From Candidatus Loosdrechtia aerotolerans (GTDB lineage: Bacteria > Planctomycetota > Brocadiia > Brocadiales > Brocadiaceae), in contig SOER01000032.1 in assembly GCA_021646405.1 (NCBI GenBank), forward strand, positions 1 to 39,781: a stretch of 39,781 bases of DNA, written 5' to 3'. The stretch's first letter is position 1. Each line of letters begins with the position of its first letter. The position numbers and the translations under genes were made by a program. A model generated the notes under the pieces. It saw nothing but the letters and a program-made list of their open reading frames with translations, was not told the DNA's origin and did no database searches. This document shows positions 25,599 through 39,781 of this stretch, one piece after another.

Positions 25599-27032
25599 AT
25601 GAATTTATCCTTCAGATCTCTGTTTTTTATAATGGTTTGCTTCCTTATTGGGATCAATATATCCCTTGCCAATTCTTCCGGCCCGCAGGAGTGGTCGCCT
25701 ACATGGGGACTTCCTCCGGGAAAAAGACCTGAGAATATTGTTAACCTGCCGGTGACAGTGCCAGGTGACGTAAAAATGAGCCAGTTTTTTAGTCCGATTT
25801 CCTGTGGTGCCTGCCACCCGGAGATCTTTAAGATGTGGAGTGGTTCAACACATGCTAATGCGTGGAGGAATCCGTTTTTTCAGGCCCTCTATAAGCTAGG
25901 GAAAAGAACAGCGGTGGGAGAGTCAGAAAAACAAAATGTAGCATCATGTGTGCGATGCCACTTTCCTATTGGGCATAGTGCCGGGGAAGTTAATCTCTTA
26001 CCCGATGATGAAAAAGGGGGTGTTGTCTGTGATTTTTGTCATTCCGTTCGGGCAGCTACTGGTATTGGAAATGCACCCTATATATTAAGTCCGGGTAATG
26101 CAGCGGCCATGGAGGGTGGTACGAAGTATGGCCCTTTTGATGATTCTCCTGAAACAATTCATAAAAATCAGTATTCTGAATTGCATACACGATCAGAATT
26201 TTGCGGAGGATGTCATGATGTATCACATGCAGGAAATGATCTTCCTATTGAACAAACGTATACTGAATGGCGGCAGGGTCCGTATAATACAGGAGATCCC
26301 GAGACAAGTATACACTGTCAGGATTGCCACATGAGACAGCGTCCGGGCTTTCCATCTACAGGAAGTACAGACAGACCTGATAACCCCGGTTTTGCAGCGC
26401 CTGAAATTATGGGAGGAAAAAAACGCCCGCATATATGGACACATTATTTTGTTGGTGCCAGTGTTTCATCTCTTTCCCTGCCACCAGGTTCAGAGGTGCA
26501 ACCACAATTAGCTGTCGAGAGATTAAAAAATGCTGCAACACTGGAAATTGTAGTTGACCAGACTCCTAAAAGCGGTGACCTGTTCAGATTTCAGGTACAG
26601 GTAAAGAATACGGGTGCAGGACACTACTTGCCAACAGGGCTCACCGAAATGCGTCAGATGTGGTTGGATGTCTCTGTCACCGATGCAGATGGTAAAACCA
26701 TTTATCGAAGTGGGAATGTTGACGAGAAAGGTACGATAGACCCGAATGCTACTATTTATCACACAGTGTTTGGAAATGAAAAGGGTGAACCAACAATCCA
26801 TGTATGGAGTGCAACACACGTTATTTCAGACAATCGTATTCCGCCCAAGGGAAAAAAAGAAGAACGCTTTGTTTGTCTGATTCCGAACACAACAAAATCT
26901 CCGCTAACAATACATGTTGTACTCCGTTATAGAAGTGCACCCCAGGATGTTATAGATATGCTCTTAGGCGAGAAATCCCAGAAACTTCCCATAATTGACA
27001 TGGCAGAGGTATCAAGCGAAGTGAATTTGTAA
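25599..27032 (+). CDS. Pentahaem c-type cytochrome, exported
   Basis: This 477-residue protein has a signal peptide (MNLSFRSLFFIMVCFLIGIN, cleavage probably near ANSSG) and five CxxCH haem-binding motifs: CGACH (69), CVRCH (117), CDFCH (144), CGGCH (202) and CQDCH (240). The region resembles the multihaem cytochrome c554 type. The second half (from about residue 300) has no haem motif and looks like a beta-sandwich (FRFQVQVKNTGAGHYLPTGL). Haem attachment places it outside the cytoplasm, in anammox cells possibly the anammoxosome. An electron-transfer role is likely; the partner is unknown. The ATG at 25599 follows AAAGGGG and starts the signal peptide. It stands alone. Confidence 0.92.
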   Translation: MNLSFRSLFFIMVCFLIGINISLANSSGPQEWSPTWGLPPGKRPENIVNLPVTVPGDVKMSQFFSPISCGACHPEIFKMWSGSTHANAWRNPFFQALYKLGKRTAVGESEKQNVASCVRCHFPIGHSAGEVNLLPDDEKGGVVCDFCHSVRAATGIGNAPYILSPGNAAAMEGGTKYGPFDDSPETIHKNQYSELHTRSEFCGGCHDVSHAGNDLPIEQTYTEWRQGPYNTGDPETSIHCQDCHMRQRPGFPSTGSTDRPDNPGFAAPEIMGGKKRPHIWTHYFVGASVSSLSLPPGSEVQPQLAVERLKNAATLEIVVDQTPKSGDLFRFQVQVKNTGAGHYLPTGLTEMRQMWLDVSVTDADGKTIYRSGNVDEKGTIDPNATIYHTVFGNEKGEPTIHVWSATHVISDNRIPPKGKKEERFVCLIPNTTKSPLTIHVVLRYRSAPQDVIDMLLGEKSQKLPIIDMAEVSSEVNL

Positions 27033-27066
27033 AAATTGTAACATGTTTGTTTTTTTTAGAAAATAA

Positions 27067-27180
27067 TCCCATAAGGGTGAAATATTTATAGCGAAAATGA
27101 AGCATAAAGCTCCGTTAGGAGCGATCTGTTTGTAGAAAAAAACCATACCACAAAGAGAGCTCCGGCGGAGCGACCTGTAC
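27067..27180. repeat. Three REP-like small palindromes
   Basis: TCCCATAAGGGTGAAATATT (27067), AGCTCCGTTAGGAGCGATCT (27108) and AGCTCCGGCGGAGCGACCTG (27158) each carry a 4-5 bp palindrome followed by G-A and a similar tail (CTGT...). The first is related to the copy at 11935-11959. They form a tandem array of dispersed intergenic repeats just after the cytochrome gene. Confidence 0.6.
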
Positions 27181-27189
27181 TCTGCAACA

Positions 27190-27260
27190 TATAGTACTAA
27201 TCATATGAAACCGAACAGAAAATAAAATTGCATAAAAGGACACTTCTGTTTCGTATATAA
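27190..27260 (+). mobile_element. Solo IS-end remnant matching the IS at the right edge
   Basis: Positions 27205-27249 (ATGAAACCGAACAGAAAATA, continuing ...ATTGCATAAAAGGACACTTCT) match 39671-39715 almost base for base. The outer part TATAG-N10 at 27190-27204 also agrees with 39656-39670. This is therefore the left end of the same IS without its transposase. Confidence 0.8.
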
Positions 27261-27289
27261 GCCCTTTGGGCTTTGTTTGAAAACTGGTT

Positions 27290-27435
27290 TATAGTATCCA
27301 GGGGATGAAACCAAACAGTATTTTAAACCGGGTGGCACGGACAAACTTGTTTGTCCGTGATGGTGTAATTAATCCTGGTTCATTTTTGTTTGGTTTTTAT
27401 TATATTCTGTTCGGTTTCATCCCTTGAATACTATA
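27290..27435. mobile_element. MITE-like element with 29-bp inverted ends
   Basis: The left end (27290-27318, TATAGTATCCAGGGGATGAA...) and the reverse complement of the right end (27407-27435, TATAGTATTCAAGGGATGAA...) agree at 26 of 29 positions. They share ATGAAACC-(A/G)-AACAG with the IS at 39656. The 146-bp body has no coding frame, only a central perfect hairpin CACGGACAAA (27336-27345)/TTTGTCCGTG (27350-27359). It is best explained as a non-autonomous derivative mobilised by that IS. Confidence 0.75.
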
Positions 27436-27673
27436 GCTGATCCGCGATTACTAGCGATTTCGGCTTCATGGAGGTGGGTTTCAGCCTCCAATCCGAAGTG
27501 AGGCCGGCTTTTTGGGATTTGGTCTGCCTCACGGCTTGGCACAACCCTTTGTACTGGCCATTGCAGCATGTATCCAGCCCGGGACACATAAGGGCCATGA
27601 TGGCTTGACGTCATGCCCGTCTTCCTCCGTCTTTCGACGGCAGTCTCTTTAGGGTGCCCGGATTATCCGGCTG
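27436..27673 (-). pseudogene. Fragment of a 16S rRNA gene, antisense
   Basis: On the minus strand this reads as bacterial 16S rRNA from about E. coli position 1140 to 1355: GAGACTGCCG, ATGACGTCAAGCCATCATGG, CAATGG, CGGATTGGA, CATGAAG and ATCGCTAGTAATCGCGGATC in the right order. Normally invariant blocks are altered: GAAGGTGGGG appears as GAAGACGGGC and GTGCTACAATGG as ATGCTGCAATGG. No other part of an rRNA operon is present. It is a decayed fragment of about 240 bp starting exactly where the MITE-like element ends. Any 16S-based search of this genome could be misled by it. Confidence 0.9.
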
Positions 27674-27692
27674 CAAGTGAAATGTATGAATT

Positions 27693-28259
27693 CTATTGAC
27701 GCGGTTTAGCTGCTATTTCAAGTACCCTCAAATCTAAAAATCTTTTGGATGCTGCCGATTTTATTATACATACAGTATCAGCTCCCCTGGCTGTCCCTGC
27801 AACGGCTATGACTTCTTCAAATTCTGGTATGAGCCCTCCGTCACAAGCCTCCAGGACAATCTCACAACACACCTTTATACCCTCTCCAAGCCGCCGTAAA
27901 GACTGGGAGACGATCATCGTCGGATAAAGACCCTCAAACTTTTGAGCAAATGCGGTTTCGATCGAATGTGTGAGGATGGTGGTAGTATAAATTTTTCCGC
28001 CATGCTTTTGTATTGCATCCCTGTTCTCGGGCAGTAATTCAAAATGGTTTGGCTCCTTGAAACCGAAGGGGTGGGTAACGACTACAAGGTTCACCGTTTT
28101 TCCCTGGAGTTTTTTCGCTATGGCTGCACCCGTATCTCCCGTTGTTGTTGCTACGACTATATGCTTGTAGCCTTCGTCAAGGAGGGAGGCTGCTATTTCA
28201 ACGCATTTCTCTGTATTTTCTTTTCCGGGTTTATCAAAGTAATGTACTTGTCTTATCAT
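27693..28259 (-). CDS. Pyruvate kinase alpha/beta (C-terminal) domain-like protein
   Basis: This 188-residue stand-alone protein resembles the C-terminal domain of pyruvate kinase. It has NTEKCVEIAASLLDEGYKHIVVATTTGDTGAAIAKKLQGKTVNLVVVTHPFGFKEPNHFELL, then a middle region with ALRLGEGIK-type residues (RRLGEGIKVCCEIVLEACDGGLIPEFEEVIAVAGTARGADT). Such single-domain proteins are common in bacteria and archaea and have no proven function; they lack the catalytic barrel and cannot be pyruvate kinases by themselves. The ATG at 28259 starts the recognisable domain; no strong ribosome site is visible. A frame extending to 28463 would cross a perfect hairpin and is unlikely. Confidence 0.83.
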   Translation of the reverse strand: MIRQVHYFDKPGKENTEKCVEIAASLLDEGYKHIVVATTTGDTGAAIAKKLQGKTVNLVVVTHPFGFKEPNHFELLPENRDAIQKHGGKIYTTTILTHSIETAFAQKFEGLYPTMIVSQSLRRLGEGIKVCCEIVLEACDGGLIPEFEEVIAVAGTARGADTVCIIKSAASKRFLDLRVLEIAAKPRQ

Positions 28260-28299
28260 ATGAGATATTTTAGTAAGTTTTCTTTTTAATTCAACAAAA

Positions 28300-28330
28300 T
28301 TAGCCCAACTTTTGCAAAAAGTTGGGCTAA
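28300..28330 (-). promoter_or_regulatory. Perfect 14-bp hairpin in the leader of the pyruvate-kinase-domain gene
   Basis: TTAGCCCAACTTTT (28300-28313) is followed after GCA by its exact reverse complement (28317-28330). On the minus strand it is followed by TTTTG, so it looks like a weak intrinsic terminator 40 nt before the start codon. It may act as an attenuator or close a transcript coming from the right. Confidence 0.5.
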
Positions 28331-28552
28331 CAACAGGCAGGTAAGAAGGGAAGAACCTTAGATAAGTATTTTCCAAATAAGAAACACTGAGGATGTTTTT
28401 GAACCAGGAATCCTTACTTTGAAGGAAATTGTAATTGAGGAGAAAAGATAACGAGGTATGCAATTTTTAGACTTCTGAATCTTCTTGAATTAAACATAGA
28501 TTCCATATATACTTTTGTAAAAGCTAAAATTAAAGGAGGTAGTATTTTTTAG

Positions 28553-29365
28553 ATGCCTAGCCCAAACATGAGCCCAATTTCACCAGTCTCACTTCCAAGT
28601 TATAAAAAACCGCCTATCAATGAAGTTGTTTGTGGGTTACGATTTAATACCCCGGGTGAGCTTAAAATTCCCCATATAGGGCTTCTTTGGGATAAATTTC
28701 GTACCGATTACCCGAGGATTGAACATGCATCCCCAATAGTATCGGCCAAGGGTGAATTTTTAATAGACCCGGTAACGGGCCTACCCTTACACAGAGTGTG
28801 GTTTATTAATGAATCAGATGACCAATTGATACAATTTCAGTTTGACCGACTCTATTTTAATTGGCGACGCAGGCAGGGTGATTATCCGCGGTATTCCTAT
28901 GTCATCGAGCATTTCGAAAAGGTACTAAACATTGTCGAAAATTTTTTTATTGAATTTAATCTGGGCGACATTACTCCTATCGAATATGAACTTAGCTATA
29001 TCAACCATATCCCAAAGGGAGAAGGTTGGAATACTATTGATGATCTCTCAAGGATATTCTCGGATTTTGTTTGGGTAAAAAAAGCGGAGCGCTTTTTACC
29101 TAATCCATTGAATTTTGGCTGGAAAACGGAGTTTCCTCTGCCAGAAAAAATGGGGCGTTTAGCTATAACACTTAAACAAGCTATACGAACGGAGGATAGA
29201 GTTCCTTTATTTATTTTAGAACTAAATTCTCGTGGGTTTCTTGACGAAGCGACAAACAAAAAAGACTTTCATAAGTGGTTTGATGTAGCACATGAATGGA
29301 TTGTTAAAGGTTTTACTGATATAACAACACCCGAAATTCATAGCATCTGGGAGCGAGAAGTATAA
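28553..29365 (+). CDS. TIGR04255 family protein
   Basis: This 270-residue protein resembles TIGR04255, a widespread family of unknown function. The opening SLPSYKKPPINEVVCGLRF is its hallmark, followed by GLLWDKFRTDYPRIE, then QFQFDRLYFNWRR, ELSYINHIPKG and a final KGFTDITTPEIHSIWER, where the family usually has 'F..lt...~~W'. Members are often found in accessory regions. A strong GGAGG lies about 15 nt before the ATG, rather far; ATG at 28568 is possible. It overlaps the next gene by one base (TAATG), and the third gene overlaps the second by ATGA, so the three are translated as a unit. Confidence 0.82.
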   Translation: MPSPNMSPISPVSLPSYKKPPINEVVCGLRFNTPGELKIPHIGLLWDKFRTDYPRIEHASPIVSAKGEFLIDPVTGLPLHRVWFINESDDQLIQFQFDRLYFNWRRRQGDYPRYSYVIEHFEKVLNIVENFFIEFNLGDITPIEYELSYINHIPKGEGWNTIDDLSRIFSDFVWVKKAERFLPNPLNFGWKTEFPLPEKMGRLAITLKQAIRTEDRVPLFILELNSRGFLDEATNKKDFHKWFDVAHEWIVKGFTDITTPEIHSIWEREV

Positions 29366-30078
29366 TGTCTAATTTGTTGAGACATGAGAGAAGTAACAGA
29401 CGCCTTGCTTACAGGGAAACCAGTTCTGTATATAACGATGAATTTCTGATAGAAACATCTCCAAGTGATCGATCATATTCTGTCTCGTGGGAAAATATTC
29501 TTACTTCTCCAACAGTGCAAAGGCATAAAAGGCGTAATTATCCTTTCTATATCACGCCAGCTACTAATGAATCTAATAAAGAAAGTATGGAGGGTGTCAT
29601 AACTGAATGGCCCGAGAAAACAGACCCTTCTACACAAGAAGATTTACTTTATAGCGAAGAGGAACAGATACAAGAATTCATTTTCAGGATTAAAACATCC
29701 CTCTTTATTCCATACCGGGAAAGGTTAGCTAATAGGCTTCTTACATTATTCAAAGATGCAAAGGAAGAAGACCCTGATAGTCCTGGAATATCCGTTAGTT
29801 CCCTTCGTAATTTCTATAATTTTCTTCAATTACATGGCAATGTAAAGTGTCCAACCATTTCTTTAACACCTTACTGTAATATCTATACTTCCTGGAGGAG
29901 TGACCAGAAGCGAGTATTCAGCGTGCATTTTCTGCCAAATGGGGATGTTCGATTTGTCATATTCAAACCTAATGACAGGCATCCGGAGAAAAAAATTCGA
30001 ATTTCCGGAACAGCAACAACTGACATTCTTAAGGAAACAGTTGCACCATATGGTGTCTGGAACTGGATCTCGGAATGA
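29365..30078 (+). CDS. Conserved-context hypothetical protein, second gene of the TIGR04255 operon
   Basis: I do not recognise this 237-residue protein. The first half is hydrophilic with many Ser, Arg and Glu residues and looks disordered. The second half is more compact: LANRLLTLFKDAKEEDPDSPGISVSSLRNFYNFLQLHG, then PTISLTPYCNIYTSWRSDQKRVFSVHFLPNGDVRFVIFKPN. The last segment looks like a strand-rich fold, with the YTSW...FSVHFLPDG pattern common in small proteins of this genomic context. No signal peptide or membrane segment is present. Start and stop overlap its neighbours, so it acts with the TIGR04255 protein and the 140-residue protein that follows. Confidence 0.8.
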   Translation: MSNLLRHERSNRRLAYRETSSVYNDEFLIETSPSDRSYSVSWENILTSPTVQRHKRRNYPFYITPATNESNKESMEGVITEWPEKTDPSTQEDLLYSEEEQIQEFIFRIKTSLFIPYRERLANRLLTLFKDAKEEDPDSPGISVSSLRNFYNFLQLHGNVKCPTISLTPYCNIYTSWRSDQKRVFSVHFLPNGDVRFVIFKPNDRHPEKKIRISGTATTDILKETVAPYGVWNWISE

Positions 30079-30497
30079 AAGGTGACAAAACGCCTGACCA
30101 TCACCACATTGCCCGTTACTGCAAACCTACTTGTGTTGTGGATGGGCAGATTCAGGCCACTGCTTTCATGTTGAGGAAAGATGAAGAAAGTATCTCTGTA
30201 AATTGGTTAGAATATCTTGGACACTCAAGCAGAGAGGGAGAGATTACCGAGCTTAGAAAGATTTACTCTGCGAAATTAAACGTAGGGGCACGTGCCAGAA
30301 TAGCTGTCTTAAATGTCGGTGAAGTCCGTAACAAAGTACTTACAGAAAGTCCGGATAACCGAAATCTTGAGATTCTTCATGATCCCTTAGAGAATGATCC
30401 ATCCCATAGTGGAATATATAACCTCAGAGATGATGATGAACTGATAGCAGAGCTTATTCTCGAGACAGTCCTTAAGACTTACTCTGCTCGCAGCTAG
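30075..30497 (+). CDS. Hypothetical protein, third gene of the TIGR04255 operon
   Basis: This 140-residue protein begins DHHHIARYCKPTCVVDGQIQATAFMLRKDEESISVNWLEYLG, a pattern I recall from uncharacterised proteins encoded near such operons. It continues with ARIAVLNVGEVRN and HDPLENDPSHSGIYNLRDDDELIAELILETV. The His/Cys-rich opening (HHHIARYC) and the late DPSHSGI could form an active or metal site, but no known enzyme family is recognised. No export signal is seen. The ATG overlaps the previous stop by ATGA. Confidence 0.78.
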   Translation: MKGDKTPDHHHIARYCKPTCVVDGQIQATAFMLRKDEESISVNWLEYLGHSSREGEITELRKIYSAKLNVGARARIAVLNVGEVRNKVLTESPDNRNLEILHDPLENDPSHSGIYNLRDDDELIAELILETVLKTYSARS

Positions 30498-30848
30498 GAC
30501 AAAAACAGATAAAAATTTGCAAGCAAATGAGATCACACATTGACAAGTTGTCCGAAAATAAGTATCCCGGACAATTATCGATTCATAAGTAATTTAATAT
30601 CAATAGCAAATTTTTTCGATTTTGTATTCTCGGACAACCTGTTGTGCCTTGTTTATATCTTACGCAAAATGCAAGACTTGCCCCTTTTTATGCAAATGCT
30701 TCCATAAAGCCTAACACAAATCATTGAGGACCGCTGTCCAACTGTTATTGAAACAGAGGCCCTCTGTGTCTGGTCTTCATTTCCTTACTTTGCCATACTC
30801 ATGCTCAGAAGATTTGCAGAGGTGATATTTCAAAGTGCATAACACGCT
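30498..30848. other. 351-bp spacer with three copies of TTGTCCG/CGGACAA
   Basis: No gene is visible between the two convergent operons. TTGTCCG at 30548-30554, CGGACAA at 30568-30574 and CGGACAA at 30631-30637 are the only marked pattern. The first two form an inverted pair 13 bp apart, which could be a hairpin or an operator. A small ATTTGC-AA-GCAAAT palindrome lies at 30516-30529. No good terminator was found for either operon. Confidence 0.5.
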
Positions 30849-31709
30849 CTATATTAGTACAGGTGATTTGAGTGCTTTAATAGAATCAGCAAAATCCAGG
30901 CCTACTGAAAAAATTAGAATTTCGTCACCAACCCTATTAGATGCAGATTGTGAAAGTTTATGCACAATTTTCTTTTCTTCTGCATATAAGTTCAAAATAA
31001 AATCATGATTGTCATAAGAAACCATCCATTTCTTGTGCATTTTGTGAACGTATTTAGAAAGTTTCTTATGATCTTCTTTTGAATAAAAGTTCATATAAAG
31101 ATCGGCTCCTTTTTGATAATAAGGAGGATCCAGGTAAATGAAAATTTCTTCTCTTTTTTTATTCAATTTACTAATAAAAGATAGGCCATCAAGATTTGAT
31201 ATAGAAATACGATCTTTGATACTCGCTATTTTTTGAATCCTGTCAATTAAATCTTGTTTTTTGAATCTTGCATCAATTTTATATTTCCCTTTCTGTTCAT
31301 ACCCTCCAATTACACCACCTTTTATTACACCTGAAATGTTTGTCCTGTTAAGAAAGAAAGTTGATTTTGCTAATTCAAAATAATCTACATCATCTGCATT
31401 GCTCTGTATTTCTTTATATTTACGCCAACTGGTTATAGAAACCTCAACATCATCAATCCATTCACAAAACTCGCCTGGCCTATTAATAATACTTATCCAA
31501 AAGGCATAGATGGACTTATCAAGATCGTTAATGTAAATATGGTCAACATAACCCTCAAAGAGCAGTCTAAGTGCCAATCCAGCACCACCAGCGTAAGGTT
31601 CTGCATAGCTAACGCCTATAAGTTGATTTTCATAGAAGATATTTGATACAAATGAAAATATGGAGTTCTTACCTCCTGGATATCTTAACGGTGAATAATG
31701 GATACTCAT
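30849..31709 (-). CDS. DNA adenine methylase, D12 class (Dam-like)
   Basis: This 286-residue N6-adenine methyltransferase has the alpha-class motif order: YPGGK (residues 10-14), AdoMet motif I YAEPYAGGAG (35-44), INDLD (60-64) and catalytic DPPY (194-197). The length matches Dam and D12-type enzymes. It is the last gene of a tight minus-strand operon, starting 1 bp after the stop of the ParB-like gene. No partner restriction gene of the DpnII type is adjacent. It could mark self DNA for the ATPase/ParB-like proteins, or be a solitary methylase. The recognition site (GATC or other) cannot be read from the sequence. Confidence 0.93.
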   Translation of the reverse strand: MSIHYSPLRYPGGKNSIFSFVSNIFYENQLIGVSYAEPYAGGAGLALRLLFEGYVDHIYINDLDKSIYAFWISIINRPGEFCEWIDDVEVSITSWRKYKEIQSNADDVDYFELAKSTFFLNRTNISGVIKGGVIGGYEQKGKYKIDARFKKQDLIDRIQKIASIKDRISISNLDGLSFISKLNKKREEIFIYLDPPYYQKGADLYMNFYSKEDHKKLSKYVHKMHKKWMVSYDNHDFILNLYAEEKKIVHKLSQSASNRVGDEILIFSVGLDFADSIKALKSPVLI

Positions 31710-31710
31710 A

Positions 31711-32952
31711 TTATTCCTCTATTCCATGTGTAATTGTTAATATCGCTCCAATGATAATTGATACGGCTATGGTTTGTTCCATATTATTAGATGATTGATA
31801 ATTATGTGCTCCTGTGTGTAGCAATTGCACTAAACTGCTTTCATTTACATTTTGGCTTGATAGAGTTGTCTTTATGTCTTGGTCTAAAGTTTTCTTTGCA
31901 TTGGCAAAATTTCCTTTTAAATAATTTTGAAGTTTCTTATTGTTATCTTCCTTTGCTGCTATTTCGCATAGTAAGCGCAAAGACATTCTAATTAAGCCTG
32001 GGAATGTCTGTGACAAATCATTCTTTTTTGTGATATAGAATCGATATAGATCCACTATATCCCTATAAAGGTTACTTACCTCTCCCATGCGCAGATACAG
32101 TTTTCCCTCAAACAATTCAAATTCCTTTCTTGATGTACACCTTGATTGTCGCTGATTTTTACTTTCCTCTTTAGGGTTATTAAAGCTTATTTTAGATAGA
32201 TGCAATTTATTATTTTTATTTTGAATTATTAATTGCTGGGATGATGGATCTAAGATTTCAATAACTTTTCCCCGATTTTTCCGAGTAGTTATCTCCTTTT
32301 TCTCAATTTTTCGTGAAATATCAGAAAGAATTGAATAGGCTTCTTGGTCACTATGCACACTGTTTAGCCTTCCTTTTTGGATGGTAAATCCCATTAACTT
32401 TAACACATCTTCCTTAAAAACTTCATCTTTCACAAAACGCTGATTCAAGTGGGGATTTGCACTTATAATTCCTGTATTTTCCTCTAATATTAGAAACGAG
32501 CTTTTTTCCTCGCCCATAAATTTATGGAGAAAAATATCCCGTTCAAGAGGTTGCCAAGAGCCTGAGTCACTATGCTTTCTATAAATATTGTTTAGTGCAA
32601 CTTTCTTTATACAGACGTTACATGGGATTTCCTCTGGAAAATCCGGAAGCTGAATGCTTTTACCATTAGGGATAGTAACAAGCCCATGCTTTATTTTTCC
32701 AAGGATAATTCTTCGGTTCCCATCATAGACTATCGGTCTTTTTCCATGATATACTACTGTGGGTAGTTCACTAAAATCGTAGTATTCTCCCATTTCTTTT
32801 GCCAATTTAGGAAGAGTCCATTTTGATAGCCTATCATCCAATGCTCTATCAACAATATGCTGGTCAATTGCTCTTTCATCAATTGGGTCACGAGGATTTT
32901 CAGTCCATAAGACCAGATCTTTGATATGGATGTATTTTACTTCTTGTTCCAT
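31711..32952 (-). CDS. ParB N-terminal-like domain protein of an ATPase-methylase operon
   Basis: This 413-residue protein starts with a ParB/Srx-like fold. IHIKDLVLWTENPRDPID (residues 8-25) matches the usual 'l.i.dl..NPR' opening, and KRPIVYDGNRRIILGKI (71-87) matches the 'dG.rR..a' motif that binds CTP/ATP in ParB or drives DNA nicking in related enzymes. The rest is helical and unlike plasmid ParB; the C-terminus ends in a hydrophobic helix (IAVSIIIGAILTI). It lies 13 bp after the ATPase gene and 1 bp before the methylase gene. No partition system is present, so a role in defence or DNA modification is more likely than segregation. Confidence 0.75.
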   Translation of the reverse strand: MEQEVKYIHIKDLVLWTENPRDPIDERAIDQHIVDRALDDRLSKWTLPKLAKEMGEYYDFSELPTVVYHGKRPIVYDGNRRIILGKIKHGLVTIPNGKSIQLPDFPEEIPCNVCIKKVALNNIYRKHSDSGSWQPLERDIFLHKFMGEEKSSFLILEENTGIISANPHLNQRFVKDEVFKEDVLKLMGFTIQKGRLNSVHSDQEAYSILSDISRKIEKKEITTRKNRGKVIEILDPSSQQLIIQNKNNKLHLSKISFNNPKEESKNQRQSRCTSRKEFELFEGKLYLRMGEVSNLYRDIVDLYRFYITKKNDLSQTFPGLIRMSLRLLCEIAAKEDNNKKLQNYLKGNFANAKKTLDQDIKTTLSSQNVNESSLVQLLHTGAHNYQSSNNMEQTIAVSIIIGAILTITHGIEE

Positions 32953-32965
32953 TTTCTAAAGTAAT

Positions 32966-34525
32966 CTAGCTAAGCAAAAGCCTATTATACTTTTCAATTA
33001 GTTTTTCATAATCATCTTTAAAAGCATCAACTTCCTCTTGATTCTCTGCAACCCAAAGGTTTATCACATTAGCACAGTTTCTTCCCCAATACTGCCTTTG
33101 TGAATTGAACCACTCCTTTGCCTTATCTCTATAAGTCTGAATTTCCTTTAAGGAATAGTTTCGGAAGACATATTGCTTTGTGTATCCTTCATGGATTTTA
33201 TCCCAAAGAGGTGATTCATCCGGGAGACTATGAAGAAACTCTGCAATAAGTCTTTCAGGAGATTTATTACCCGGTAACACCAAAATATTTTCATTCTGGT
33301 TAATTCTCCTCATTTTTAATACTTCTGTTTTTACATCTCCATCCAATACAATTAATGATTCAGGGAATCTGAATCCTACGATTTTTTTTCTTGCCAACTC
33401 AATAAGATTGTCACAACCTAAAGTGCAATAAATAAACTGCAAAACAGATGATTTTCTTTTTATCATTGCTCTGAGAAAAACCTCTCCTTCTTTATCCTCA
33501 GTAAAGACAGGTATCTTTTTTGTTATTTGTTTGACAGAAAGAGCTACATTAAGATTGTTCTTAATTACCTCATATGAAATGCTTTCAATAGCCTTAACTT
33601 TAGTACCAGATTTTTGTAAATATACAACCTTAATTTGTCCTGAAATTGTAGAGTCATCTTGCCATTCACATACTTTTTCAAGAATATTTAGCGAATGGGT
33701 AGTAAATACAATTTGAATTTTAAGTTGTGATGAGAATTTTCGTAGGGCTTCAATTAGTTTCAATTGGGATGCCGGATATAATGTTGCATCTAACTTATCA
33801 ATTGCCAAAATACCCCCTTTATAGGCATTCCCGTGTGTATTTTTCAGCCGTTGAAATGATAGAATTGCCAGTAAAATTTTTCCAATATTATCTTGACCGG
33901 CTGAGTTCATCTTCCAGTCATAATATGATGTATTTACTCCCAATGTATTTTTCTGTTTACTCGCCAGGTAATCTACACTAGCCATCTCAACATCTGGTAT
34001 AATTAAAATTTTGTTATGCCAATCTTGATAGAATTGAAACTCGTCTGGTGTGAGGGTTATCTCATTACTTGAGTCAATTGCGGTATCTTCGCCTATTGGA
34101 AACAAACGTGATAGGCTTAAATAAATCACTGGAATTTGGATATAGCCTGACCCCTTGGAGCGGTCACCTTTTTTCCAAAAACGAATTCCTGTTGTACTGG
34201 AAGAATCTCTTTTGATACTTTCAACTGTAAATTCTGTTTCATTGTTCAATTTTAGTGTCCATTCATGGCTTTGGGGCGTATCGAAGGAGTCAGAAAGTTT
34301 AAATTTTTCAGCAAATGACGATCGGTAATTACCTCCACAAAGAGGCTTTTTACCATATAGTGAATTTGATTTATCCGTAATAGAGAAAGGTTGACTCAGC
34401 ATTCCCAGCACTGTAGTTTTCTGAGTACCATTTTGACCTGCAATTACCGTTAAATTAGTTCCTAACTGAAACAGCACATCATTAAACCCCCGGAATTTTT
34501 TGATATGGACACTTTTAATAATCAT
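32966..34525 (-). CDS. AAA/ABC-type ATPase with C-terminal TOPRIM-like region (OLD-like)
   Basis: This 519-residue protein begins SVHIKKFRGFNDVLFQLGTNLTVIAGQNGTQKTT, an SMC/OLD-type start with Walker A GQNGTQKTT (30-38). A signature-like NSAGQDNIGKIL follows (207-218), then Walker B GGILAIDKLDATL (237-249) and the H-loop FTTHS (274-278). After residue 335, FTEDKEGEVFL (343-347 acidic) and LIVLDGD (395-397) resemble a TOPRIM nuclease core, as in OLD and GajA proteins. The usual catalytic Glu after the Walker B Asp is Lys here, so ATP turnover may be weak. It heads the operon. The 217 bp before it hold a gene remnant and probably the promoter. Confidence 0.85.
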   Translation of the reverse strand: MIIKSVHIKKFRGFNDVLFQLGTNLTVIAGQNGTQKTTVLGMLSQPFSITDKSNSLYGKKPLCGGNYRSSFAEKFKLSDSFDTPQSHEWTLKLNNETEFTVESIKRDSSSTTGIRFWKKGDRSKGSGYIQIPVIYLSLSRLFPIGEDTAIDSSNEITLTPDEFQFYQDWHNKILIIPDVEMASVDYLASKQKNTLGVNTSYYDWKMNSAGQDNIGKILLAILSFQRLKNTHGNAYKGGILAIDKLDATLYPASQLKLIEALRKFSSQLKIQIVFTTHSLNILEKVCEWQDDSTISGQIKVVYLQKSGTKVKAIESISYEVIKNNLNVALSVKQITKKIPVFTEDKEGEVFLRAMIKRKSSVLQFIYCTLGCDNLIELARKKIVGFRFPESLIVLDGDVKTEVLKMRRINQNENILVLPGNKSPERLIAEFLHSLPDESPLWDKIHEGYTKQYVFRNYSLKEIQTYRDKAKEWFNSQRQYWGRNCANVINLWVAENQEEVDAFKDDYEKLIEKYNRLLLS

Positions 34526-34572
34526 AGTATTATTTTGTTATAAATTACTCAAATTTTAATTTTCGGCACTCT

Positions 34573-34680
34573 TCAATTGTTTGGGCTGTTTTTGATGCCC
34601 GAATCCCTGTTTATGATTACCTGATAGCGTTTCATAATCCACCCAACTGCCAATTTGCCGTTGACTACATATTCATAAGC
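34573..34680 (-). pseudogene. C-terminal remnant of a large restriction helicase
   Basis: An in-frame stretch AYEYVVNGKLAVGWIMKRYQ, followed by VIINRDSGIKNSPNN and a stop, matches the C-terminal tail of type ISP-like restriction/helicase proteins, where I recall AYEYVVNGKSAIEWIMERYQ followed by DSGIVNDPN. A stop lies about 10 codons upstream and no ribosome site or start is present, so only the last 35 codons survive. It lies between the truncated helicase and the ATPase operon, showing that another restriction gene once stood here. Confidence 0.6.
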
Positions 34681-34741
34681 CCAGAAGCACAATACTTATT
34701 TAGAATTAGGTATCCTCCGATTTTTATATGCATATGAAATC

Positions 34742-37700
34742 TTAAAAAAATAATTGGGGTGACCGTCTTTCCTGGCAAAGCTCATTCAGCCTTTCTTCAA
34801 CAGCTTCTCTCAGTCGCTGGATTTGTCTTACCGGGTCATCAAACCAGTCCGTTGACCATATCCGATGAAGACTCCAACCCAGGTCCACTAACACTCCCTC
34901 TCTAAGTCGGTCTCTATCCCTAGCCGATCTTGCTGAATGATATGCAGCTCCGTCACATTCAACTCCCATGATAAAGCCATGAGGCCACTTGGGATGCTTA
35001 ACACCCATATCAATAAAATATCCGGCAACACCAACCTGAGGAGTTACCTCACATCCCATAGCTTTAAGTTGATTGGTGACAAATATTTCAAACATTGAAT
35101 CGGGTTCCCTTGCTTGAGGAGTTAAGTCATCCACTAGAAGCATCCCTGTCGCAGAGTACTCTAGCCATTTCTTCAACATCGTAACTCCCACGTTTGCCTC
35201 ATTAGTTCGAATATCTGAAGAGGTCATTGAGGAAAAAGTAACAATACGTTCTTTAGCTCTCGTAAACAAAACATTTAATCTTCTTTTTCCTGTTACGCCG
35301 TTAATAGGACCAAATCTTTGCATGACTGGCGCACCCTCATTTTCTGGTCCATAAACTGTACCAATGAATATGACATCACGTTCATCTCCCTGAACATTTT
35401 CTAAATTCTTTATAAAAAAGGATTCAAGTCCATCATTATTCTTTTCCCATTGTTCTACATATCTTTGAACAGAAATATCATTAGCTAACACATAATTCAT
35501 TTCTTCTAACATCAGATCTCTTTGCTTCTGATTCAAAAGAACAATTCCCAATGATTTACTTGGGTAGTCACTCATAAATTTAACAGCAGCATCGATCATA
35601 GCTTTTGCTTCAATTGGATTAGTTCCCTTTGAGTAAAGACCAGGGATTTTCTTAAACGACACCCCCATGTCTGGATGGTTTTCCACTGGGGAAGGAAATA
35701 TAACTAAACCACTATCGTAAACGTATTTATTGGAAAATGCGATTAGTCGTGCATCACGTGATCTATAGTGCCACTTCAATCTTCTGGCAGGCCTAAATAC
35801 TGCATTTGACATTTCAAGAATCGATTCTTCAGTGAGGACTTCCTTGTCTTCGTCATCATCTTCATCAAAATGCTTTTGGAAAAAATCCATAGGCGGCAAC
35901 TGATTAGTATCCCCCACAACCATTGCTTGTTTTCCTCGAGCTAAGGCACCGATTGCATCTTCTGGCGTCATCTGAGATGCCTCATCAATAATAACTAAAT
36001 CAAACTTAATCTTTCCTTTGGGAATATATTGTGCCACTGCTAGAGGAGAGACCATCCAACATGGTTTGATTTCCAAAAGTGCCTCTCCTGCCCTTGAAGT
36101 TAAATCACGAACAGGAATATACCTCCCCTTCTTGGTGACTTCATGCGTAAGCAGAGCCATGTTTGTCCATTCTTTCCGCCGACCAGATCGGCTGCCCGGA
36201 GAAGGATTTACCTCACGGATTAATTTAACCCGCAAACGTTTCTGAGATAATTCGAGAACTTTTTTATCGAGTTCGGCTAACTGCTTGCGGAGTTTGTTTA
36301 ATTTAATCCCATTGTAATTTGTTAAGATCTTGCTATGTTCTTTATAAACCTCTCGTGCCATTGCTTGAGATATTAACGTTTTAATCTTTTCAGACAAACC
36401 AAGGTAAAACTCTTCATCCTCCCTGAGAGCTTTGATAATTTCTCCATATCCAAGATCACTAAGTTCTTTCGTATACAGAGCTACTATGGAATGAGATAAC
36501 AGACCTTGCTTGTCCTTTGAAGCTTTATACAAGTGGTCGGAAAATGCTGCCCTGTTCAAACCCCTCCTAAGCCCTTCAACTTCACATTGAACTAATTTCG
36601 CCAGGTTTTGCAATTCACTGCCTGAATCTGCATCCGCATGTAATACATGTTTTATTATTTCACAATAATTTTGAACATTGTCATCTTCGATTGCTTTCAA
36701 ATAAATGCTACCAACATCGCCTCCTAATAAAACAGCAGTTTCTGCGACTTTTAGCGACTCTTCTATATCAGTGATTTTTGTATCAATTCCCCAAAAATAC
36801 ACCCCTAATACATTTCGCATATCGGCATCTTCAGCCAATGACCGCCATCTTTTTAAGAAAGCACAAATTTTTTCTGGCATTTCATCCAACATGGAAATGT
36901 TAAATGTTTCAGGATCTTTGATCAGAGGCAGCAAATTTTCTAATTCACTCTTAGACCTCTCCCATGCATTATACTTATTTTCGAGCTCTTGGATCTTTGC
37001 AAAGAGACTATTAGGTGTATCATCCTTAAACCCGTGTAAAGCATGATTATTATCAATACTCGGCAATGACATAATTGAGCTGGTTTCAGCTAGGCACATA
37101 AACTCTCTCAAATATAAATCACTTAGGCCTCTCAAACTATTATCCACATCTTCATAATATTTCAACACTTTTTCAAATAAATCAAAGTTAGTATCCATTC
37201 CATTAAAATGAGCTTTCAGCAAAGATTTGACAGAAGCATCATTTTCATAAGACGCTTTACCTTTTAGCCAAGCTATAAGCTGTTGCAGGTTGGTTGTTGA
37301 TGCTTTTCCCTCCCACTTGCCCGTATTGGTTAGAGATTTATAAAAACGTTTTGCAGCATGGTACTTTGGCGAAAAGAGAGCGAAGATTCCCGCTTTTCTT
37401 AAAACCGCGTTGTTATCTTCCAGCTCTTGTATTTCAGAACATAAATCAAAGTTAAATATTTTCGATAGTTTCTCACGTCGTTCTTTAAGTGAAACAGCTT
37501 CAGTCCTATACTTTTCCAGGAACTCCTTAACCTCTGGATCTTCATAATCGCGACATCTTAGGGCTAATACAGCTCTGTCAGCAGCTTTAGCAATCTCACA
37601 TGCCACTAAAAGATATCTGATTTTGATGTTACCAGCCTCAGTCAGTTGGTTAATTATTTCTCTACAGACCTCATTCGCTAAAGCCAATTGCGATTTCTGT

Positions 37701-39670
37701 TCCTCCACCCGTTTAATCTCACTGTGTATATCTTCATTAGACAGCTTTTTCAGGTTATGCTCTTTACATATCTTTTCAATTTTTCGCAAATTAGCTGCTA
37801 AATTATCATCTAACGTATTTACAAATAACTGGTCGTATTCTTCTTTAAGTTTTTTAATTGAATCAACATCAGAAAAGAATTTTTTTGTATTCTCAATACA
37901 CTTTTCAGACTTCAACTTACCAACCAACGAGAGGTCAATTTTATTGATTTCATCAGGTAGTTTTACTAGTGCATCAAGGATAATCTGAAGCATTGCCTCT
38001 TCAGCATCTTCGTTAAGTCCTATTTTTTCTAATGCCGTCCGCTTTTCTGCAGCTCTTTTGAACTCATCGCCTGTCCGACGCGCCGCATTTAATATTTCAT
38101 CTGCAATAAAAGGATCAACATTTACGTTACCTATACCTCCCCAATACTTTTTATGTATCTTCGCTTCGAGACAGGCCGATTCCAACAGATCACAGGTTGC
38201 TACTATTTGTTTAATTAACTGTTTATCAATCTTTTTTGGCGTTGGAACGGGCAAGCGCCGCACTTCTTCTGGCAAATGAGCTAATTGAGGATGGGCAGAT
38301 ATGGCATTTCCTAAAATTTCATACACGGTCATATTTGTTTCACCAAACACTGAGGCAACACATTCAATATACTTTTGTAGCTTATCTCGGGTACGTTTGT
38401 AATCTTTTAAAATATCGTCAAAATTTCTTGGATTAATTTCATTACCTAAGTCAAGGCGGTTACCAATGGATTTAATAACTTGTTCCTTAGAAGCTCTAAC
38501 CGCCTGTAGTGTTAGTAAAAAGGGACCTAGCCCACATGCTTCGAGCCGGGACCGCACAACCTCAAGCGCTGCTGTTTTTTCCGCAACAAAGAGAATTTTT
38601 TTACCATTAGCCATCATTGTCGCAATCGTATTAACAATAGTTTGTGACTTACCAGTACCCGGAGGACCTTCAACAGCTATATTTTTTCCATCGGCGACAT
38701 CAACCATCACACTAAACTGCGAGGAATCAGAATCCATAACCGTAAGAGGAACTTTTATTTCAATGTCTGGATCATCTATATTGTAATCATCCCCATATGG
38801 AGTAACACCTTGAGCACTATCACATCTGCCGAATAAATTATCAATTACAGGTTGATCTGCAAAATTCCAAGTAGAGGTATCAAGGTCGTGATACATCGCC
38901 ATCCTTGCCGATGGAAAAACGCCAATTGCTACCTGCCTTCTAACTCTCCATTTCATTCCCTTTGGTGAAAGCTTTGCAACTTCAGTAAAGTAATCTTCTG
39001 GTGTCATATCTTCACTAAACTTCGGTAATTCCAAGCCATATTCAATTCTTAATTTCTCTGCAAGAACCGTGTTATATTCGGTAGCATCCCCAAGGCTCAT
39101 AACGCTAAACTTGCTACCTTTATGAGTTTTTTTCTTTTCGATTTCAATAGGTAAAAGAATTAACGGGGCAAGTGAAGGCTGAGAAGTGTCATTAGTATCA
39201 AACCATTCCAAGAATCCAAAGGCTGCTTTTAGAACATCAATACCTGTTTCCTGGACCCACGTCTTGCACTTGACAAGCATAGCATTCATTCTTCTCTCCA
39301 ATAAATCAGGCGTTAAAATGGTTTGAATTCCATTGTCTTGACGGCAGCCATCCTCATGCGCCTGATCTGGCGATGGAAGATCGTAACCGGGTGAGATATT
39401 ATTGTTGTGTGCATGTTGAACTAACGATAGGTTCTTTTTCGTTTGCCTTGGAGCCATACCAAGTTCTGCCCGAATCCTGTCCTTTAGCCTACGCTCTGCA
39501 TTCATAACCTTTTGTGGTTCGTTGGAGTCGTCCTGATTAATTATCTCCAGATCCGCTTTATATGCTTCATCTGTTATTCGACCATCTGCAAGCCGATTCT
39601 GAAATTCTCTGCTCTCTTCATCTTTGGGATCATCATCCAGTGGCGGCAATGGAATTATAGTTAATAACAA
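34742..39670 (-). CDS. DUF4011-helicase-Vsr protein, 5'-truncated by an IS (Hhe-like)
   Basis: This open frame of about 1642 residues is a superfamily 1 helicase. The N-terminal DUF4011-type region (GIQTILTPDLLERRMNAM, LGFLEW-like AFGFLEW, LILLPIEIEKKKTHKG) precedes Walker A GPPGTGKS (about 335-342). A long, coiled-coil-like insert of about 850 residues follows, then FDLVIIDEASQMTP (about 1225), WHYRSRD, ENVQGDERDVIF (about 1420) and NVLFTRAKERI. The end is a Vsr/REase-like nuclease: FEIFVTNQL, YFIDMGV, GVECDGAAYH, RLREGVLVDLGW. The layout matches proteins reported in antiphage defence as Hhe. The usual opening with 'LLDLS.RNRLL' is absent: the frame begins inside the IS end, host sequence starting at 39655. 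It is likely inactive or expressed from an IS promoter. Confidence 0.88.
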   Translation of the reverse strand: MLLTIIPLPPLDDDPKDEESREFQNRLADGRITDEAYKADLEIINQDDSNEPQKVMNAERRLKDRIRAELGMAPRQTKKNLSLVQHAHNNNISPGYDLPSPDQAHEDGCRQDNGIQTILTPDLLERRMNAMLVKCKTWVQETGIDVLKAAFGFLEWFDTNDTSQPSLAPLILLPIEIEKKKTHKGSKFSVMSLGDATEYNTVLAEKLRIEYGLELPKFSEDMTPEDYFTEVAKLSPKGMKWRVRRQVAIGVFPSARMAMYHDLDTSTWNFADQPVIDNLFGRCDSAQGVTPYGDDYNIDDPDIEIKVPLTVMDSDSSQFSVMVDVADGKNIAVEGPPGTGKSQTIVNTIATMMANGKKILFVAEKTAALEVVRSRLEACGLGPFLLTLQAVRASKEQVIKSIGNRLDLGNEINPRNFDDILKDYKRTRDKLQKYIECVASVFGETNMTVYEILGNAISAHPQLAHLPEEVRRLPVPTPKKIDKQLIKQIVATCDLLESACLEAKIHKKYWGGIGNVNVDPFIADEILNAARRTGDEFKRAAEKRTALEKIGLNEDAEEAMLQIILDALVKLPDEINKIDLSLVGKLKSEKCIENTKKFFSDVDSIKKLKEEYDQLFVNTLDDNLAANLRKIEKICKEHNLKKLSNEDIHSEIKRVEEQKSQLALANEVCREIINQLTEAGNIKIRYLLVACEIAKAADRAVLALRCRDYEDPEVKEFLEKYRTEAVSLKERREKLSKIFNFDLCSEIQELEDNNAVLRKAGIFALFSPKYHAAKRFYKSLTNTGKWEGKASTTNLQQLIAWLKGKASYENDASVKSLLKAHFNGMDTNFDLFEKVLKYYEDVDNSLRGLSDLYLREFMCLAETSSIMSLPSIDNNHALHGFKDDTPNSLFAKIQELENKYNAWERSKSELENLLPLIKDPETFNISMLDEMPEKICAFLKRWRSLAEDADMRNVLGVYFWGIDTKITDIEESLKVAETAVLLGGDVGSIYLKAIEDDNVQNYCEIIKHVLHADADSGSELQNLAKLVQCEVEGLRRGLNRAAFSDHLYKASKDKQGLLSHSIVALYTKELSDLGYGEIIKALREDEEFYLGLSEKIKTLISQAMAREVYKEHSKILTNYNGIKLNKLRKQLAELDKKVLELSQKRLRVKLIREVNPSPGSRSGRRKEWTNMALLTHEVTKKGRYIPVRDLTSRAGEALLEIKPCWMVSPLAVAQYIPKGKIKFDLVIIDEASQMTPEDAIGALARGKQAMVVGDTNQLPPMDFFQKHFDEDDDEDKEVLTEESILEMSNAVFRPARRLKWHYRSRDARLIAFSNKYVYDSGLVIFPSPVENHPDMGVSFKKIPGLYSKGTNPIEAKAMIDAAVKFMSDYPSKSLGIVLLNQKQRDLMLEEMNYVLANDISVQRYVEQWEKNNDGLESFFIKNLENVQGDERDVIFIGTVYGPENEGAPVMQRFGPINGVTGKRRLNVLFTRAKERIVTFSSMTSSDIRTNEANVGVTMLKKWLEYSATGMLLVDDLTPQAREPDSMFEIFVTNQLKAMGCEVTPQVGVAGYFIDMGVKHPKWPHGFIMGVECDGAAYHSARSARDRDRLREGVLVDLGWSLHRIWSTDWFDDPVRQIQRLREAVEERLNELCQERRSPQLFF

Positions 39671-39781
39671 ATGAAACCGAACAGGAAATAAAATTGTTTA
39701 AAAGGATACTTCTGTACGTTATGAAAGTTTGTAAACAAGTTATACGAGGAGGTATCCTATGCTTCAATTGGATCCGAAATG
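39656..39781 (+). mobile_element. Left end of an insertion sequence (continues past the window)
   Basis: TATAG (39656-39660), N10 and ATGAAACCGAACAG (39671-39684) form the same 29-bp end as at 27190 and 27290. It continues with a leader and a transposase start at 39759. The left boundary falls where the DUF4011-helicase frame loses its normal N-terminus. The IS family could not be named, and the right end and target duplication lie outside. Confidence 0.8.
39759..39781 (+). CDS. Partial transposase gene of the IS (first 7 codons)
   Basis: An ATG preceded by GAGGAGG (39746-39752) encodes MLQLDPK before the window ends. Its position 75 bp inside an IS end makes a transposase the natural reading; the family cannot be told from seven residues. 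Confidence 0.6.

Follow-up and report, generated by a model that had tools for sequence, protein, structure and literature searches.

The question raised by one end of contig SOER01000032.1 of Candidatus Loosdrechtia aerotolerans is whether three tightly packed minus-strand genes form a unit there and, if so, what kind of system that unit represents. The window analysed, 39,781 nucleotides in length, is a complete contig (C25); the genome, of 3.26 Mb, also encodes hydrazine synthase alpha, a marker of anammox planctomycetes (HZS_alpha, 3.5e-28). A preliminary description, made from the letters of the sequence alone, had read the three genes as an OLD-like ATPase with a TOPRIM-like end, a protein with a ParB-type DGNRR domain and an adenine methylase, with gaps of 13 bp (ATPase-ParB) and 1 bp (ParB-methylase), and had proposed a possible defence system without a known name. 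The map of open reading frames (ORFs) agrees exactly with those positions, and all three frames are full length and unbroken. The trio is a real, conserved and horizontally spread three-gene module, and it is probably an anti-phage operon, gained by horizontal transfer, of a type that combines restriction-modification with abortive infection (RM+Abi); in it, a PD-lambda-5-like pair would be joined by an OLD-type arm.

The conservation of the module was established by an alignment-based scan for the ATPase through 84,980 species, which yielded 161 relatives, of which 80 were kept and 79 loci were scored. All three genes lie within 3 kb at 40 of these 79 loci, in many phyla, a frequency that does not represent an unbiased rate, as the scan was seeded with the ATPase. 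The ATPase is accompanied by the methylase, without ParB, at 31 of the 79 and stands without the methylase at the other 8. Gene order within the trio is variable: ATPase-ParB-methylase at 13 loci, ParB-methylase-ATPase at 17, ParB-ATPase-methylase at 8 and, at 2, the ATPase set against a convergent methylase-ParB pair. These orders require at least nine changes on the ATPase tree, which implies that the genes were rearranged many times yet kept together, and neighbouring trio genes mostly overlap or lie no more than 10 bp apart. The nearest relatives of the window's copy belong to Cyclobacterium and Algoriphagus (Bacteroidota), with 76-82% identity at the protein level (77-82% for Cyclobacterium) and about 76% at the DNA level. 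Among 59 genomes of the host genus and family, the ATPase is present in the window's own genome and in no other, and ParB has no match outside that genome among 246 genomes of the phylum, so that vertical inheritance was rejected. Because the closest copies reside in Bacteroidota while the host genus and family are devoid of the ATPase, this distribution indicates that the locus was acquired laterally, plausibly from, or in common with, Bacteroidota.

The predicted features of the ATPase are those of an OLD-type ABC ATPase with a C-terminal TOPRIM nuclease-like domain, which makes it a candidate nuclease. It matches AAA_15 in Pfam (1.4e-15), ATPase-Toprim_I-B in PADLOC (3.2e-22, with the best stretch at residues 238-457) and phrog_3940 (3.8e-113), a phage family that is uncharacterised. 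Neither PADLOC 2023 nor, above cut-off, NCBIfam 2026 contains a model that names this protein. The top Foldseek match of its AlphaFold2 model (predicted local distance difference test, pLDDT, 92) is the OLD nuclease 6p74 (E 3.2e-12), and VIA-align, with its alignments confined to residues 1-332, returns Z scores of 19.7 against SMC heads and 17.7 against retron PtuA. As VIA-align scarcely reaches the TOPRIM part of this protein, or the central portion of ParB, a new fold is not claimed. The acidic TOPRIM residues E343, D344, D395 and D397 are invariant in all 56 ATPases aligned, in agreement with the TOPRIM-like end of the preliminary description.

The methylase matches PD-Lambda-5_B in PADLOC over residues 1-278 (1.6e-112) and MethyltransfD12 in Pfam (3e-18), and its DPPY motif is invariant. 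It is a D12-class adenine-N6 DNA methylase of the PD-lambda-5_B family, as had been supposed, and its motifs suggest that it marks host DNA. In the ParB-type protein, the expected DGNRR domain is present: the residue ahead of GNRR is D or E among 35 ParB proteins, and D in the window. The structural model (pLDDT 86.7) matches ParB/Srx folds at its N-terminus (Z 8.8, VIA-align), and its C-terminus aligns with the HEPN toxin 8xdj (Z 7.3, a score that helical bundles may reach by chance; root mean square deviation 3.6, 109 residues aligned) and with AbiV 9bj5 (Z 6.5). The protein thus has a ParB/Srx fold (ParB/CTPase), followed by a helical C-terminus that may be HEPN-like. At other trio loci, ParB matches PD-Lambda-5_A over its full length (2.5e-195, 1.1e-165 and 1.1e-153 in PADLOC); the window's copy falls in a short divergent clade, was joined to the full-length members via an iterated profile and can be aligned with them as one family.

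A second sample, based on the methylase only and meant to escape the ATPase bias, comprised 296 genomes from the phylum of Sphingobacterium and 274 from the class of Thalassotalea, and the surroundings of 32 matches were read. About 21 of these are ParB-methylase pairs, two are ATPase-methylase pairs, one is a trio outside the two seed genomes, and the remainder have neither partner or are broken. Three modular combinations are observed, and since the methylase is found with either partner singly as well as with the two together, it may be regarded as a self-marker with two exchangeable response arms, that is, as a hub for which ParB and the ATPase-TOPRIM protein would be exchangeable and stackable partners. 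On the ParB tree, loci that have an ATPase next to ParB are interspersed among loci that have none (16 changes, of which well-supported branches force at least nine), and the ParB of prophage locus L011, which has the ATPase, is 80% identical to that of a Vibrio maritimus plasmid, which does not.

In viral contigs (IMG/VR), the alignment-based scan gave 84 loci. When the window's ParB and ATPase were used singly as queries, no viral contig matched, which reflects a limit of sensitivity, given the loci recovered from the alignments; a tblastn search of phages and plasmids with the window's ParB was likewise empty. The ATPase and the methylase stand together in 74 of the 80 prophage loci (L011-L090), most of the others ending at a contig edge, and a ParB gene lies near the two in four loci. 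The PADLOC matches of the prophage ATPases are to generic ABC-ATPase models only. Tentatively, the prophage pair could be an undescribed type of RM system in which an OLD-family nuclease restricts, the trio then being a stacked two-effector hybrid with one methylase guarding both; this is a possibility to be taken seriously, short of being the expected one.

Other arrangements of ParB-type genes were seen in phages. In Vibrio phage ValB1MD-2 (L002, 7467-9019), PD-Lambda-5_A is divided between two ORFs, gp41 and gp42, beside the methylase, and L011 has its homologue in one undivided ORF of 539 amino acids. In two E. coli P2-like phages (L178, 3947-7016; L179, 96-3266), the hotspot on the portal side contains WPhi gp98, a gene that is ParB-like, together with a C5 cytosine methylase and with gp96, likened by eye to a PD-(D/E)XK nuclease; this set represents a third ParB-methylase architecture.

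Among named systems, PD-lambda-5 has been demonstrated to restrict phages and has been characterised as RM+Abi in compacted form (Vassallo et al. 2022, PMC9519451). It was cloned in a host devoid of the mrr region (PMC9519451), a choice of strain that fits an active foreign methylase. The window shares with it a methylase of the PD-Lambda-5_B family with a ParB-fold gene immediately upstream, and many other trio loci contain full-length PD-Lambda-5_A. Unlike PD-lambda-5, the trio has an extra ATPase-TOPRIM gene, which precedes ParB by 13 bp; in the window, ParB is also short and divergent, its match being confined to the ParB N-terminus. The locus is classed as a variant of PD-lambda-5 and not as a member because this third gene breaks the two-gene cassette; its predicted function would be PD-lambda-5-type defence with an added OLD-type ATPase-TOPRIM arm. 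The earlier claim that no named system has this composition is thus to be narrowed: the trio is unnamed in the libraries searched, but two of its genes are relatives of those of PD-lambda-5 (PMC9519451). A match to a known set of components, which would have spoken against novelty, is found in part, in PD-lambda-5, with the ATPase outside the set, a divergent ParB in the window and no BREX or DISARM parts; PglZ, BrxC and DrmA-C are absent from the neighbouring ORFs according to Pfam, PADLOC and NCBIfam.

With the OLD family (P2 Old, Gabija GajA and retron I-B/Eco8), the window's ATPase has in common the ABC fold with an intact Walker A and a C-terminal TOPRIM with E343, D395 and D397, 6p74 and ATPase-Toprim_I-B being the best matches; it differs in the replacement of the Walker-B glutamate by lysine and in the partner gene, here a DNA methylase. 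Gabija was rejected, as there is no GajB pair and the neighbours are ParB, the methylase and an Hhe-like DUF4011 helicase-Vsr gene, and so was retron type I-B, as the neighbouring ORFs contain no reverse transcriptase family and positions 27000-39781 no retron Rfam match. The identities of Gabija, retron, PARIS and Septu all fail on missing partner genes and on profile scores that are generic for ABC ATPases. As for a type II RM system, the methylase is present and no canonical restriction endonuclease was found at the locus; its place could be taken by the ATPase-TOPRIM protein or by ParB. Anantharaman et al. 2013 (PMC3710099) had predicted, from sequence, operons of HEPN, ParB and methylase genes, with ParB fused to or beside HEPN and a DNA methylase in the operon. 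The trio resembles them in this respect and departs from them in that HEPN is here a weak fold match, without Rx4-6H in the window's copy, and in its OLD ATPase-TOPRIM gene, which the available part of that text does not describe with the HEPN-ParB-methylase set. The coupling of OLD-ABC ATPases to nucleases in RM-like neighbourhoods is also a recognised theme (Aravind group, cited in PMC12839542), and the trio likewise places an OLD-ABC ATPase in such a neighbourhood. The theme of the trio is already anticipated by both of these sequence-based predictions, and the combination is unnamed in the libraries searched.

In the mechanism proposed for the favoured RM+Abi operon, the D12 methylase would mark host DNA, the ParB/Srx-fold protein with its HEPN-like tail would serve as sensor and effector in a first arm, and a second arm, of nuclease type, would consist of the ABC ATPase-TOPRIM protein. 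The methyl mark, or else the integrity of the complex, would restrain each arm; once released, an arm would attack phage DNA, either unmarked or modification-evading, or would turn on the nucleic acid of the infected host. Two arms may in this way be layered in one cell, with methylation providing self-protection. Besides the ATPase seeding of the species scan and the low score of the HEPN match, several observations weigh against this proposal. The methylase-based sample contains a single trio outside the two seed genomes. The window's ParB matches PD-Lambda-5_A in PADLOC at 1.1e-8 and over residues 6-82 only, and its C-terminus has no Rx4-6H motif, the aligned His being present in 26 of 35 ParB proteins. 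The Walker-B lysine at position 244 is unique to the window's copy among the 56 aligned ATPases, and this E244K change may leave the ATPase arm impaired or locked in one nucleotide state, unless the lysine codon is instead an assembly error.

Other explanations assign different roles to the same genes. ParB and the methylase alone could be the defence system, of PD-lambda-5 type, with the ATPase-TOPRIM as an independent OLD-type interference gene that travels along. PD-lambda-5 is indeed defined without an ATPase gene and yet is protective (PMC9519451), most methylase-sampled loci have no ATPase, and OLD class 1 proteins work singly (PMC10568477); an independent ATPase is nevertheless unlikely in view of the loci that join it to the methylase without ParB, 31 of 79 plus most of the 80 prophage loci, and of the 8 loci in which it lies between ParB and the methylase with overlapping genes. 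The wide occurrence of that ATPase-methylase pair would equally suit an ATPase-TOPRIM restriction nuclease paired with the methylase, the ParB-like protein being a DndB-like regulator of methylation and not an effector. ParB-fold proteins are able to serve as NTP-binding switches (PMC12704722) and DndB has been proposed as a negative regulator (PMC12839542), but a purely regulatory ParB is quite improbable, because ParB and the methylase without the ATPase, as in PD-lambda-5, protect E. coli, so that ParB must do more than regulate there.

The state of the locus in this genome, and the benefit to its carriers, can also be read differently. Decay or inactivity is suggested by Walker-B E244K, by the interruption of the adjacent Hhe-like gene by an insertion sequence (IS), and by a degenerate rRNA fragment and IS pieces close by; against three full-length frames and the conservation of every other catalytic motif tested, a remnant seems improbable. 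It is very unlikely that the methylase merely shields incoming phage or integrative and conjugative element DNA from host restriction, with the other genes as passengers. Annotated phage copies do adjoin repressor or integrase genes, but many copies lie on bacterial contigs outside recognised phages, and the ATPase, ParB or both have been specifically kept beside the methylase over long divergence.

The trio (GC 0.338, versus 0.418 at positions 1-27000) is contained in a low-GC island at the right end of the contig, the left part of which is occupied by housekeeping genes (trigger factor, ClpP and 3-dehydroquinate synthase). The neighbouring Hhe-like gene scores 1187 bits against NF042953 'Hhe', whose cut-off is 2000, and its 5' end is truncated by a repeated IS element that begins at about 39656. 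A DUF4011 N-terminal fragment at the terminus of contig C8 is consistent with IS interruption of this gene. The broken helicase-Vsr gene of the preliminary description is thereby borne out, and the restriction-helicase remnant that it placed nearby was not found in the scanned ORFs; the defence-island setting is upheld by the low GC and the adjacent defence-type gene, but not by that remnant. The features of the locus are listed in the table.

Table. Positions in the window of the trio genes, their motifs and domains, and the adjacent helicase gene.
Feature	Positions	Strand	Details
ATPase-TOPRIM gene	32966-34525	minus	ATG start, 519 aa ORF
Walker A GQNGTQKT, residues 30-37	34415-34438	minus	G30, N32 and K36 invariant, 56 sequences
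Walker B position 244	33794-33796	minus	AAG (Lys) replacing catalytic Glu; E in 55/55 relatives
TOPRIM-like region, ~residues 338-450	33176-33514	minus	E343/D344 and D395-G-D397 conserved
ParB-type gene	31711-32952	minus	ATG start, 413 aa ORF
ParB-box GNRR, residues 78-81, D77 before	32710-32721	minus	G78, N79, R80 and R81 invariant in 35/35
HEPN-like helical domain, residues 288-412	31717-32091	minus	VIA-align
D12 methylase gene	30849-31709	minus	ATG start, 286 aa ORF
DPPY catalytic motif, residues 194-197	31119-31130	minus	invariant in 20/20 methylases
Hhe-like DUF4011-SF1 helicase-Vsr gene (outside the trio)	34742-39670	minus	NF042953 'Hhe' match

Ends of the IS element, at 39656-39781 and 27190-27249, flank the island on both sides, and the genome contains 22 other matches to the element, among which the 27190-27249 piece is counted. 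A degenerate 16S rRNA fragment on the minus strand (27430-27841; Rfam SSU_rRNA_bacteria, 89 bits, model positions 929-1363), with 81% identity over 244 bases to C33:47840-48083, is a remnant that separates the housekeeping genes from the island. On the plus strand, 28553-30497 holds three close-set genes, the first of the TIGR04255 family (8.6e-24) and the second and third without a family, the third having a weak PADLOC PDC-M32B match; they are possibly a further defence operon or one of toxin-antitoxin-like type.

As a whole, the distribution of the trio suggests a modular family of which PD-lambda-5 would be one form, its single methylase being accompanied by a ParB-type partner, an OLD-type partner or the two together. 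Annotation tools that label such loci 'PD-Lambda-5' would leave out an entire gene, and they would not recognise the two-gene form of prophages at all. If this view is correct, the role of OLD-family ATPase-TOPRIM proteins, whose discrimination of self from non-self is largely open, would become testable through a simple methyl mark.

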